A stretch of DNA of 64,000 nucleotides. Origin: Methylococcus capsulatus (GTDB lineage Bacteria; Pseudomonadota; Gammaproteobacteria; Methylococcales; Methylococcaceae). Made by a program: the position numbers and the translations under genes. Position 1 is the first letter of the stretch, and the number at the start of each line of letters is the position of its first letter. The stretch covers positions 503,501 through 567,500 of the forward strand of contig NZ_CP104311.1 of NCBI RefSeq assembly GCF_036864975.1. The letters run 5' to 3'. Under the pieces are notes generated by a model. That model was not told the origin of the DNA. It made no database searches and saw only the letters and a program-made list of their open reading frames with translations. Positions 48,836-54,228 of the stretch are shown piece after piece.

Positions 48836-49381
48836 ATGAACACTTTATCGAAACACGCGTTCCTCCGCCGTACAGCCGGCTTTGCGAGCCTGGCCATAGC
48901 CTTTTTCCTTGCCGGCCCAGGAACCGCGAAAGCGGACGCAAGCGCAAGCCTCAACGTAACAGCGACCGTAGCCAGCAAGTGCAAGATAGACTCGACCACC
49001 ACAGGCTTGAGCTTCGGTGATTACGACCCCACAGACACGACGGATGCAACGGCAAACAACGGCCAGATCCAGGTGAAATGCACGAAGGGCTCGACCCATT
49101 CCATCACCATGGGCCCGGGCACGGGCACTGGCGCAAACTGCACCGGAACTCCCGTACGATACATGAAACAAGGGACCGATCAGCTCCAGTATGCGCTTTA
49201 TCAGGATTCCAGCTTCAGCACCGTGTGGGGTTGCACCACGGGCACAGGGGGAAATGCGTACTCTTACAGCGCAAGCTCCAACAACTATAGTAACATCACC
49301 GTCTACGGCAAGATTCCTGCCGGGCAGGACGTGCCCGCCGGAAGCTATTCAGATACCGTCACCGTAACCGTAGTCTTCTGA
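48836..49381 (+). CDS. Spore coat U / CsuA/B-type pilin subunit
   Basis: The 181-residue protein has a signal peptide (residues 1-33, ending AKADA) and the SCPU domain: SLNVTATVASKCKIDSTTTGLSFGDYDP at the start and the terminal strand YSDTVTVTVVF. Conserved cysteines (C44, C79 and others) fit the disulfides of this fold. It is the first gene of a four-gene chaperone-usher cluster and should be the major fibre subunit, as in Acinetobacter Csu pili involved in attachment. AGGAG precedes the ATG. Confidence 0.9.
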   Translation: MNTLSKHAFLRRTAGFASLAIAFFLAGPGTAKADASASLNVTATVASKCKIDSTTTGLSFGDYDPTDTTDATANNGQIQVKCTKGSTHSITMGPGTGTGANCTGTPVRYMKQGTDQLQYALYQDSSFSTVWGCTTGTGGNAYSYSASSNNYSNITVYGKIPAGQDVPAGSYSDTVTVTVVF

Positions 49382-49411
49382 TAAGCCGGCGCAAGGAGGC
49401 ATCGTGGCTCG

Positions 49412-50141
49412 ATGATTTCATCCCCATTCGCGGCCAGGCGGCTAACGCCGCTACTGGCCGCTTGCCTTTGCGCATCTGCTCAGCTTGCCGCCAGCCAGTT
49501 GGATGTGGCTCCCACCCGCATCGAGCTGAGCACTGCCAAACCGGCGTCGGCCGTGACCGTGAAAAATGAGAGCAAAGACAAGCTCGTCATCCAGAATTCC
49601 GTCGTCGCCTGGACCCGCGAGGGCAACGAGGACCGCCATACCCCGACCCGGGATCTGATCGTCACCCCGCCCATCGCCACGGTGGCGCCGGGCGGGTCCC
49701 AGGTGCTCCGGGTAGGACTGCGCCGGCCCGCAGACCCCCGCAGCATGCTGACGTACCGGCTGTTCGTCGAGGAAGTACCGCCCCCGCCCCAGGCCGGATT
49801 CAAAGGGGTACAGTTTGCCTTACGGGTCAGTCTGCCGGTGTTGGTGCAGCCCGCGGCTCCCGCCCCGCCGCGGATCGTGTGGAGCGGAGCCAGACGCCCC
49901 GGCGGCGACCTGGAAATCACCGCGCGGAACGAGGGCTCGGCCCTCCAGGCCGTCTACGAATTGTTCATCGGCGGAACGCCGGGGAAGCCAGTGGGACAAA
50001 GCGGCACGATTCTGTTACCTCCGGGAAGCCGGCAGAGCTGGACTTTCCCCCCCCGGCATCCTGGGGACCGAATCCGGGCCGGCCCATGTCCGGGCATCCA
50101 CCAGCGCGGGCGCCCTCGAAAGCGATGTGGCAATGCCTTGA
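49412..50141 (+). CDS. Csu-type fimbrial chaperone, frameshifted in a run of eight C
   Basis: The periplasmic PapD-like chaperone has a signal peptide and the conserved LDVAPTRIELSTAKPAS, VTPPIATVAPGGSQVLRVG and YRLFVEEVPPPP. After GSRQSWTFPP the frame is broken at CCCCCCCC (50047-50054). With seven C the frame continues GILGTESGPAHVRAS and ends DVAMP at TGA 50139-50141, immediately before the usher GTG. As written, the frame instead runs on with a nonsense tail to 50227, overlapping the usher. The tract suggests slippage-based on/off switching or a sequencing error; the G1 strand of the chaperone's second domain would be altered. Confidence 0.85.
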
Positions 50142-52532
50142 GTGTTCCTGCCCCGGTCGTCGCTACTATCCCTGCTGCTCCTGATGCCCGTCACGGCCCA
50201 CCCGCGGGAGCAGCCTTTCGGAACTGAATCAGTATCATCCCAGCCGGGGGAGCCTCAGGTATCCAGCCCCGCCGAACCCGAAGCGGACTGGGAGGAACAT
50301 GTGCTGGCGGTCGAGCTGAACGGGGAAAAGGTCTCGGAAGGGACGGTGGTGCTGCGCGGGCGGGGCGGAACGCTGTACGTGCCGGACAAGGAAGCGCAGG
50401 GCTGGCGGCTGCGGCTGCCCCGCGGCCAGACCCTGGCGCGCGACGGCCTGGATTACCTGCTGCTGGCGAATCCCGGCATCCTCGAGGCCCGCATCGACGA
50501 TACCCGACAGATCCTGGTGCTCAAAGTCGAACCTTCGCTGCTGGCCGCCACGGTGGCCCAGGCCAGCAGCCACCTGACTCAGCCCAAGCCGGAGCGGACG
50601 AGTTTCGCAGGCTTCCTCAACTACGATTTCAACCTCATGCACTCGCCCCAGGGCGATTTCCAGGGCGGCGCGCTGGAAATCGGCATATCGAACCGCTACG
50701 GCCTGGGCACCTCCGCCTTCCTCGCCCGGCACACCAGCGCCCAAGCCGGCTCGGAACTCCAGCTCACCCGCCTGTACACCACCTGGCTCGTGGACGACCC
50801 GGAGAACATGGCCAGCCTGCAGCTGGGCGACACCATTGTGCGTCCCTGGCAGCGCGGCTACCAGGCCCGCTTCGCCGGCATCCAGTACGCCACCAATTTC
50901 GGCCTCCAGCCCCGCTTCTACCGGTATCCGCAGCCGGCCGTCGCGGGCAGTCTGACCGAAGCCTCGCACCTCGACATCTTTATGAATAACCTCCTAGTGG
51001 ACCAGCAAAGCCTGCCCGCCGGGCCGTTTCAAATCAAAGATCTGCCCTCCGCCAACGGCAGCGGCGAAATCCGCGTCGTGGCGCGCGATCTGCTCGGGCG
51101 TGAACAGGTGATCACCCAGCCCTTTTATGTCGGTAGGACCCTGCTGAGGGAAGGGCTGGTCGATTTCTCCTACGAGGCCGGTTTCCTGCGCCGCTATTAC
51201 GGCACCGACAGCATGAGTTACGGCGCACCCTTCGGCAGCGCCACCTACCGGCGCGGCCTGAATTCCTGGCTGACCGGAGAACTGCACGGACAGGTGGTCC
51301 GCGATCAGGCCACCGTGGCGACCGGCGGCTCGTTCCTGGTCGGCACCTACGGCGTGGTCGATGCGGCGCTGGGCGTCAGCGGCGGCCGGGGCTGGGGAGG
51401 GCTGGGCGGCCTCGGCTTCATGCATCAGGGCGAAGCCTTCAGCTACGGCGCCAGTTCCTATTTCGCCAGCCAGGCTTTCACCCAGCTCGGCATCGAACAG
51501 GGCCAGTTCGCCCCCAAGCAACTGAGCGATGCCTTCTGCGGCTTCACCCTCACCGGTGGATCGAGCGTTTCCCTCCGCTACGGCTCGGCCAATTACTTCG
51601 ACCGGCCCCATGTCGACACGTATGTGGCAACCTACACCCAGAACCTCTGGGGAGGACTGACCCTGACCCTGGCGGCGAACTATACCCGATCGGACTTCGA
51701 GAACGCCCAGGTCGCGGCGATCTTCACCCTGCCTTTGGGCGAGCGGACCTATGCCACGGCCAACGCGCGGGCGACCCGCACCCAAGGCTCGCCCACGCAG
51801 TTGGAATTCGATGCCCAGTTGACCCATTCCCCCGGCTGGGGACCGGGGTGGGGTTACCGGCTGGACGCCGGCACCAACGACCGCCAGGCCGCGCAACTCA
51901 CGGCCCAGACCGCCTTCGGACTGTTCAGCGCAGAAGTCATACATTCCCAGGGAGACTTCGCCGAACGCGCCTTCGGCTCGGGGGGTATCGGCCTCATCGA
52001 AGGCCATCCGTTCCTGTCGCGGCAAATCCAGGACAGCTTTGCCATCGCGAAAGTGGGCGACTATAAGGATGTCAGGGTCTATGCGGACAATCAGCTGATC
52101 GGCCGGACCGACGACGAAGGGTACGTGGTACTGCCGCGCCTGCGGGCCTACGACGTCAACAACGTGAGGGTCGAGGATGAAGACCTGCCGATGGATGCAC
52201 AAATCGGAACCCTCTCCTTGCCGGTCACGCCTTATTTCCGCAGTGGCGTGGTGGTGGACTTCCCCATCCGGCGCTCGCGCGGGGCGACATTGACGATCCT
52301 GCTGGAGGACGGCCAACCGATCCCCGTCGGGGCGACGGTCACCGTGGAAGGGGTCGCGGATGTATTTCCCGTCGGCATGAACGGAGAGGTCTACCTGACG
52401 GGGTTGTCTCCCCGGAACGAGATGAAAGTCGAATGGAACGGAAAGCGATGCACGATCGTAGCCGATTATCCGGAATCAGCAGAGATACTGCCGGACCTGG
52501 GAAAATTCGTTTGCGCGGGAGTCCGCCGATGA
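50142..52532 (+). CDS. Outer-membrane usher of the Csu-like pilus
   Basis: The 796-residue protein starts at GTG 50142, directly after the restored chaperone stop. It has a signal peptide (LPRSSLLSLLLLMPVTA), an N-terminal chaperone-binding domain (LAVELNGEKVSEGTVVLRGRGGTLYVP), a beta-barrel with plug (ADNQLIGRTDDEGYVVLPRLRAYDVNNVRVEDEDLP is the typical post-barrel region), and C-terminal domains. Lengths and motifs fit the FimD/CsuD family. The usher secretes and assembles the pilus. Its end overlaps the next gene by four bases. Confidence 0.92.
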   Translation: MFLPRSSLLSLLLLMPVTAHPREQPFGTESVSSQPGEPQVSSPAEPEADWEEHVLAVELNGEKVSEGTVVLRGRGGTLYVPDKEAQGWRLRLPRGQTLARDGLDYLLLANPGILEARIDDTRQILVLKVEPSLLAATVAQASSHLTQPKPERTSFAGFLNYDFNLMHSPQGDFQGGALEIGISNRYGLGTSAFLARHTSAQAGSELQLTRLYTTWLVDDPENMASLQLGDTIVRPWQRGYQARFAGIQYATNFGLQPRFYRYPQPAVAGSLTEASHLDIFMNNLLVDQQSLPAGPFQIKDLPSANGSGEIRVVARDLLGREQVITQPFYVGRTLLREGLVDFSYEAGFLRRYYGTDSMSYGAPFGSATYRRGLNSWLTGELHGQVVRDQATVATGGSFLVGTYGVVDAALGVSGGRGWGGLGGLGFMHQGEAFSYGASSYFASQAFTQLGIEQGQFAPKQLSDAFCGFTLTGGSSVSLRYGSANYFDRPHVDTYVATYTQNLWGGLTLTLAANYTRSDFENAQVAAIFTLPLGERTYATANARATRTQGSPTQLEFDAQLTHSPGWGPGWGYRLDAGTNDRQAAQLTAQTAFGLFSAEVIHSQGDFAERAFGSGGIGLIEGHPFLSRQIQDSFAIAKVGDYKDVRVYADNQLIGRTDDEGYVVLPRLRAYDVNNVRVEDEDLPMDAQIGTLSLPVTPYFRSGVVVDFPIRRSRGATLTILLEDGQPIPVGATVTVEGVADVFPVGMNGEVYLTGLSPRNEMKVEWNGKRCTIVADYPESAEILPDLGKFVCAGVRR

Positions 52533-53041
52533 ACCACGATATTTGGAAAGGCCGCCAATGGCGGCCAGCAGCCCTGCTTTTCTCCCTGCTGGCCTGTCCC
52601 GGAATGTCGGGTGCGGAACCGTACCGGTGCGACATTGGCAATATCAGCGTCCCGCAAACGATCTACGATCCCACGGACTCCAACCCCAACAGCTCTGGCG
52701 TGGGCACCGTCGGGGTCACTTGCGAGCTCAAGAACGTAAAGCAGACACAGCGGGTCCAATACACGGTGGCGCTGAGCCGTGGCCTCGGCGGCAGTTACAA
52801 CCCCCGGCAGATGCTGGGCAGCAAAGGATCGCTCGGCTACAACCTGTATCTGGACGCGGCCAGGGTGACGATCTGGGGCGATGGAAGCGGCGGCACATTC
52901 CCTCTGCGGGGCACTTTGCTGCTGAACCCCACCAGCCCGGTACAACAGGTGATCCACAATATTTACGGTCTGATCCCTCCACTCCAGGACGTTTACGCCG
53001 GCACTTACACCGACACCGTCACCATCACACTGACGTATTGA
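52529..53041 (+). CDS. Second SCPU-domain protein, probable tip adhesin/minor subunit
   Basis: The 170-residue protein has a signal peptide (AALLFSLLACPGMSGA) and an SCPU-type fold (CDIGNISVPQTIYDPTDSNPNSSGVGTVGVTCELK, ending YAGTYTDTVTITLTY). Its place after the usher and its different start (C two residues after PYR) fit the tip or minor subunit of Csu systems. The ATG 52529 overlaps the usher stop (ATGA). It is shorter than two-domain CsuE adhesins, so the role is inference. Confidence 0.8.
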   Translation: MNHDIWKGRQWRPAALLFSLLACPGMSGAEPYRCDIGNISVPQTIYDPTDSNPNSSGVGTVGVTCELKNVKQTQRVQYTVALSRGLGGSYNPRQMLGSKGSLGYNLYLDAARVTIWGDGSGGTFPLRGTLLLNPTSPVQQVIHNIYGLIPPLQDVYAGTYTDTVTITLTY

Positions 53042-53129: not shown

Positions 53130-54228
53130 ATGCGCGAACTCAATCCTCTCTACAATCAGATCAAAGACCTCAAGAGCCGCCAGGACGCTCTTAGGGGGTA
53201 TCTTTGACTTCGAAGCCAAACAGGAACGCCTGACCGAAGTCCTGCGCGAACTGGAAGACCCGAAGATCTGGGACAATCCGGAACGTGCCCAGGCGCTAGG
53301 CAAGGAACGGACCCAACTGGAAGGCGTGGTCAACCGGCTGAACGAGATCGCGGCCGGCCTCAACGACGCGGAAGAGCTGCTCCAGCTCGCGGTCGAGGAA
53401 AACGACGAGGACAGCATCGATGCGGTCGCCGCGGATCTAGCGCACTTTGAAAGCGTGATCGCCGAAATGGAATTCCGTCGCATGTTCTCCGGCGAAATGG
53501 ACCCGAACAACGCGTTCCTGGACATCCAGGCCGGTTCCGGCGGCACCGAGGCCCAGGACTGGGCGCAGATGCTCGAACGCATGTACCTGCGTTGGGGCGA
53601 ACGCAAGGGCTTCAAGACCGAACTGGTGGAAGAGTCGCCGGGCGAAGTCGCCGGCATCAAGAGCGCGACCATCCGCTTCGAAGGCGAATACGCCTACGGA
53701 TGGCTGCGCACCGAAACCGGCGTCCACCGGCTGGTGCGGAAATCGCCTTTCGACTCCGGCAACCGCCGCCATACCTCGTTTTCCTCGGTGTTCGTCTCAC
53801 CGGAGATCGACGACAACATCGACATCGACATCAACCCGGCCGATCTGCGCACCGACGTCTACCGCGCCAGCGGCGCCGGCGGGCAGCACGTCAACCGGAC
53901 CGAATCGGCGGTGCGCATCACCCATGTCCCAACCGGCATCGTGGTGCAATGCCAGAATCAGCGTTCCCAGCACGCCAACCGCGACTGGTGTATGAAGCAG
54001 TTGCGCGCCAAGCTCTACGAGCTGGAGATGCAGAAGCGCAACACCGAGAAGCAGAAACTGGAAGACTCCAAGTCCGACATCGGTTGGGGCAACCAGATCC
54101 GTTCCTACGTACTGGACCAGTCGCGCATCAAAGACCTGCGCACCAACGTGGAAACCGGCAACCCCCAGGCGGTGCTCGACGGCGACCTGGACATGTTCAT
54201 CGAAGCCAGCCTGAAGAGCGGCCTGTAA
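53130..54228 (+). CDS. prfB: Peptide chain release factor 2 (programmed +1 frameshift)
   Basis: RF2 ends translation at UGA and UAA. The gene starts at ATG 53130 ([20 protein letters not shown]) and meets an in-frame UGA at 53205-53207 after 25 codons; a +1 shift at CUU continues in the frame that stops at 54228. Visible are the anticodon-like SPF motif ([13 protein letters not shown]), the GGQ motif ([22 protein letters not shown]) and [14 protein letters not shown]. The total length is 365 residues, as in E. coli. It is followed five bases later by lysS, the standard gene pair. Confidence 0.97.
53193..53207 (+). promoter_or_regulatory. prfB autoregulatory frameshift site
   Basis: AGGGGG (53193-53198) acts as an internal Shine-Dalgarno, followed by TAT, the slippery CTT (53202-53204) and the TGA stop (53205-53207) with C after it. 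This is the classical arrangement by which low RF2 favours the +1 shift and restores RF2 synthesis. Confidence 0.95.

Follow-up and report, generated by a model that had tools for sequence, protein, structure and literature searches.

The pilus operon analysed here resembles the Csu operon of Acinetobacter baumannii, which consists of six genes: both combine SCPU-domain (spore coat U) subunits with a CsuC-like chaperone of the PapD type and then an usher. Expression of the Acinetobacter Csu pilus is reported to be bistable, and the discussion of it concerns regulation, apparently not homopolymer frameshifting (PMC10721868). Switching at homopolymers is described for Bordetella pertussis, where bvgS switches between C6 and C7, the length of the tracts in tcfA (G9/G10), bapC (G11) and BP3651 varies within single cultures, and one tract was variable within cultures only above C8; C7 and C8 alleles of the fimX promoter of Bordetella occur in nature (PMC1891110). 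Of the 20 papers listed by our literature search on Methylococcus phase variation, none mentions the genus.

The window, a stretch of 64,000 nucleotides, comes from a Methylococcus genome assembled as a single contig of 3.43 Mb. It contains a four-gene operon at 48836-53041 that encodes an SCPU-domain protein, a PapD-type chaperone, an usher and a second SCPU-domain protein. The features referred to below are as follows.

48836 to 49381, + strand: SCPU-domain protein, presumed major pilin, 181 aa (PF05229, E=3.5e-33), with AGGAG upstream
49412 to 50227, + strand: chaperone ORF as sequenced (C8), 271 aa, PapD-like N-domain, out of frame after 50054
49412 to 50141, + strand: chaperone of 242 aa as read in the family (C7) frame, from the alignment with three Methylococcus species
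50047 to 50054, + strand: C8 run carrying the frameshift, CCCCCCCC
50125 to 50127, + strand: ATG that corresponds to the relatives' usher start, here reading MWQCLECSCPGRRYYPCCS and then a stop
50139 to 50141, + strand: TGA stop of the C7-frame chaperone, from the same alignment
50142 to 52532, + strand: outer-membrane usher with GTG start at 50142, 796 aa (PF00577, E=1.4e-32; PF13953, E=1.2e-16)
52529 to 53041, + strand: second SCPU-domain protein, 170 aa (PF05229, E=1.1e-24), its ATG overlapping the usher stop

Pfam searches found two PF05229 domains, PF00345 and PF00577/PF13953 in this one operon, the composition of an archaic (Csu-like) chaperone-usher operon. With the C7-frame chaperone as query, the nearest solved structure by sequence was CsuC of Acinetobacter (5d6h, E=5.5e-08), ahead of the classical PapD (E=3.9e-05). 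The Csu-type label of the original prediction is therefore right. The operon nevertheless differs from Csu of A. baumannii in having four genes instead of six and in that its second SCPU protein is single-domain.

The analysis of the chaperone gene revealed a frameshift at the only C8/G8 run in the window. The ORF at 49412-50227 matches PapD_N over residues 30-149 (E=1e-21), and alignment shows that its frame agrees with the chaperones of three other Methylococcus species as far as the run. After the run the C8 frame continues as RHPGDRIRAGPCPG..., while a C7 frame would end in ...WTFPPGILGTESGPAHVRASTSAGALESDVAMP, the counterpart of the chaperone end WVFPGEVLGSESGTAHVRASTNAGVIEGDVDVEGP in M. 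capsulatus Texas. A change between C8 and C7 thus shifts the chaperone frame. As sequenced, the ORF lacks the last 28 residues of domain 2, which is complete in the three relatives, overruns the usher start and stops at 50227, 86 nt beyond the family stop. A chaperone-usher fusion was ruled out, as the C8 frame is not that of the usher and stops at 50227. The original prediction, made from the letters of the window, had stated that the chaperone follows its family up to the C8 and then goes wrong, and that removal of one C restores the family ending with the stop directly before the usher start codon; comparison with the three species bears out both statements. A structure predicted for the Texas chaperone from two sequences, at low confidence (a mean pLDDT of 50), served solely for counting strands beyond the run and places two of the seven domain 2 strands past it. 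The C8 product therefore should not fold domain 2 properly; it retains domain 1 and probably loses the last two strands of domain 2.

The junction with the usher is also altered. In the three relatives the usher begins at an ATG within the 3′ end of the chaperone gene (GATGTGGAG...), in the +1 frame. The usher leader of the window is net 2 nt longer, so the equivalent ATG at 50125 runs into an early stop and the usher must start at the GTG at 50142, behind the C7-frame stop. Since the Shine-Dalgarno sequence of this GTG is weak, initiation there probably requires that ribosomes terminate at 50141, and the C8 would prevent this; a loss of chaperone-usher coupling is thus plausible. A reading of the two extra bases as clear single-C insertions was rejected, since the diverged leader allows several gap placements of equal quality.

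The run as such is unremarkable, and the notable part is the gene broken by it. One C8/G8 is present in the window against 7.7 expected from dinucleotide shuffling, so that such runs are rarer than chance here, and C/G runs of at least 8 number about 62 in the genome; the run does not stand out in length from chance or from this background. At the same site three other Methylococcus species have no C run and read TTCCCCGCC, TTCCCTGGGG and TTCCCTCCGG, so that the C8 is not a conserved contingency tract. By analogy with the Bordetella tracts, it would lie at the lower edge of the fast-slipping lengths.

We classified 61 runs of 8-11 C/G in the genome by a codon-usage score together with reading by eye (the run near G000 1202810 lay outside the scored stretch). 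About 39 keep the coding frame, three break genes and the rest are terminal or intergenic. In-frame C9 runs occur in genes identified by reading their sequences as dnaK, fmt, parC and xerD, which shows that the lengths of such runs are usually correct in the assembly and that essential genes tolerate C9; M. capsulatus Texas has a C9 in fusA. Rampant error in run length was rejected on the ground that most runs retain frame. Besides the chaperone, the genes broken by runs comprise a polysaccharide pyruvyl transferase (C9) and a Fic-like fragment (G8).

Further run frameshifts were found across the genus, where genes lacking a Pfam match were named from their sequences. The pyruvyl transferase (PF04230; G000:C1:120980-120988; L170 5380-6652) lies in a glycan/ABC-transporter cluster; it is intact in three relatives (G001, G002, G005), one of which reads CCCCTCCC at the C9 site. 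In M. capsulatus Texas an exopolysaccharide cluster contains two methyltransferases that are broken, one at a G11 and one at a C8, and a second cluster, which has a radical SAM gene, contains broken AsnB-like (G11) and HPrK-like (G8) genes; the four sites are L235 6132 and 7728 and L236 5336 and 7022. A gene similar to GDP-mannose dehydratase (gmd) in G002 (L136) has an inserted repeat with a G8 and is out of frame; the epimerase-like gene after it stays open. In G004 a phosphate-permease-like gene is broken at a C11. Among runs that keep frame, the usher of a sister species (G002, L003 2864-2875) has a C12 just past the signal peptide, the longest C/G run of that genome, and polymerase-like genes of the genus contain a C10 and a G11. 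Surface genes look over-represented among the run-frameshifted genes, in a list that was drawn up by eye and after the fact, includes non-surface genes and has no sites conserved between species.

Selection on the operon does not appear relaxed. For the chaperone, pairs that include the window gave dN/dS values of 0.33-0.45, close to the 0.32-0.33 obtained among the relatives; the usher pairs computed gave 0.28-0.31. Divergence in the 28 codons that follow the run does not exceed that in the remainder of domain 2, a comparison that has little power with so few codons. These values suggest that the break is young on the species scale, intermittent, or not real. dN/dS is not clearly raised, the usher and both SCPU genes are open, and a long-dead pseudogene was ruled out by the dN/dS comparison. 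Across the family, SCPU genes are present in 6 of 38 genomes and the operon is absent from the other 32; of the other Methylococcus genomes, three carry an intact chaperone and two are without the operon. In two other genera it has decayed: the chaperone of G014 (L168 2031-2486) consists of domain 1 only and ends about 67 nt before the usher ATG, and in G010 (L169) the operon is wrecked, with an open SCPU gene and usher fragments in three frames. The operon is thus dispensable and decays repeatedly in the family, and this recurrent loss is the background against which the chaperone frameshift has to be read.

At about an even chance, these observations would be best explained by a slippage mutation of recent date in a pilus operon that is dispensable; the operon would be off in the strain sequenced, and the mutation could revert. 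The explanation starts from what was observed, namely the frameshift, its youth on the species scale and the lack of the run in the relatives. Slipped-strand mispairing would have expanded a short, lineage-specific C run by one base in the recent past, and the extra C would have put the chaperone gene of this archaic (Csu-like) operon out of frame. Ribosomes translating the C8 message would terminate 86 nt past the old stop and not beside the usher start, and the strain would likely be unable to build its Csu-like pilus. A slip to C7 would restore the chaperone gene, which makes the change formally reversible. We infer in this that the mutation is real, that function and coupling to the usher are lost and that the loss can be reversed. 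The C9-broken pyruvyl transferase, as the same event elsewhere in the genome, supports a real mutation, and so does the selection on the operon, which is not relaxed. Against it counts the position of the frame-changing indels, all within 130 nt, as a local error would give, and the excess of surface genes among the run-frameshifted genes hints against plain random loss. The locus is like ordinary frameshifted fimbrial operons in its single frameshift, its otherwise intact operon and its patchy, decaying distribution in the family; it differs from them in that the mutation lies within a C run, where reversion is likelier than for a typical null.

A sequence error and an evolved switch are about equally likely alternatives to recent slippage, each of them rather improbable. 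If the assembly is wrong, the run truly has seven C, and an intact chaperone leaves nothing to switch. The net frame-changing indels, one at the run and a net +2 in the usher leader, fall within 130 nt of GC-rich palindromic DNA, the coding part of the operon shows no other indel that is not a multiple of three relative to the three relatives, and a corrected local sequence would yield both the chaperone end and the usher leader of the family. However, the runs of 8-11 C/G elsewhere mostly keep frame, essential genes included, with only three breaking a gene; moreover, the leader has diverged with ambiguous gap placements, and as sequenced it offers a workable GTG start and signal peptide. The original prediction favoured a phase-variable switch in which C7 turns the pilus on and C8 turns it off. 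As an evolved switch, the C run would be a contingency tract whose reversible slippage gives mixed populations, and other C/G-run genes for surface polysaccharides would be parts of the same system. The account that the original prediction gave of the gene, the frameshift, the difference of one C and the junction of stop and usher holds; the switching stays hypothetical, given that the run is absent in relatives and that C8 and C9 runs are stable in essential genes. The precedents of bvgS (C6/C7) and fimX (C7/C8) are in its favour (PMC1891110), as are the coding frame kept under selection and the recurrence of long C/G runs in surface genes of the genus (the pyruvyl transferase, the Texas methyltransferases, gmd, the C12 usher and the polymerase-like genes). 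The likeness to the B. pertussis switches is that expression of a surface or regulatory gene is altered when a C/G run, coding or in a promoter, changes by one base; in Bordetella, however, length variation was seen between strains and within cultures, whereas the C8 comes from a single genome and is not conserved in the relatives. C8 is moreover common in the genome and mostly silent, with C9 in dnaK, fmt, parC, xerD and the Texas fusA, and within-culture variation of one B. pertussis tract was seen only above C8. The run also sits near the 3′ end of the chaperone gene, the genes broken by homopolymers include the permease, AsnB-like and HPrK-like genes, and the operon decays repeatedly in the family.

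A wider form of the switch, in which Methylococcus populations would vary their surface structures by slippage in a set of contingency genes (chaperone-usher pilus, polysaccharide polymerase, pyruvyl and methyl transferases), the C8 chaperone among them, is slightly more doubtful still. It is very improbable that C8 still yields chaperone through recoding, by a ribosomal +1 slip at CCC-C or by RNA polymerase slippage, so that the run would set the dose. The shift required on CCC CCC C is +1, and this is the known direction of the shift by tRNA-Pro at CCC-C. The same genome uses a +1 site in prfB (53131-53210), but the C8 has no Shine-Dalgarno spacer or stop codon of the prfB kind and is not conserved in the relatives. 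A precedent for slippage at the transcript level is Buchnera, where it rescues some frameshifts in homopolymers (PMC2831843); that rescue, however, concerns poly-A tracts.

Real switching would mean that an obligate methanotroph used for feed protein varies its surface by slippage, which would bear on biofilm, phage escape and the stability of strains in fermenters. Without a switch, the locus serves as a warning: a C-run frameshift beside a pilus gene mimics phase variation, but in this genus a sequence error, or chance loss in an operon that is dispensable, explains it about equally well.

Some other runs and frameshift sites were observed in the course of the analysis. CRP-like regulators of two genomes (G003, G004; L180, L182) have in common a G10/G12 run at an identical position near the C-terminus, and the tail of the protein would vary with its length. 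A G11 separates a bacterioferritin-like gene from a divergent PAS-domain gene (L191; G000:C1:1754386-1754396), possibly in a promoter. The prfB gene of the window has the usual programmed +1 frameshift site (AGGGGGTATCTTTGAC).
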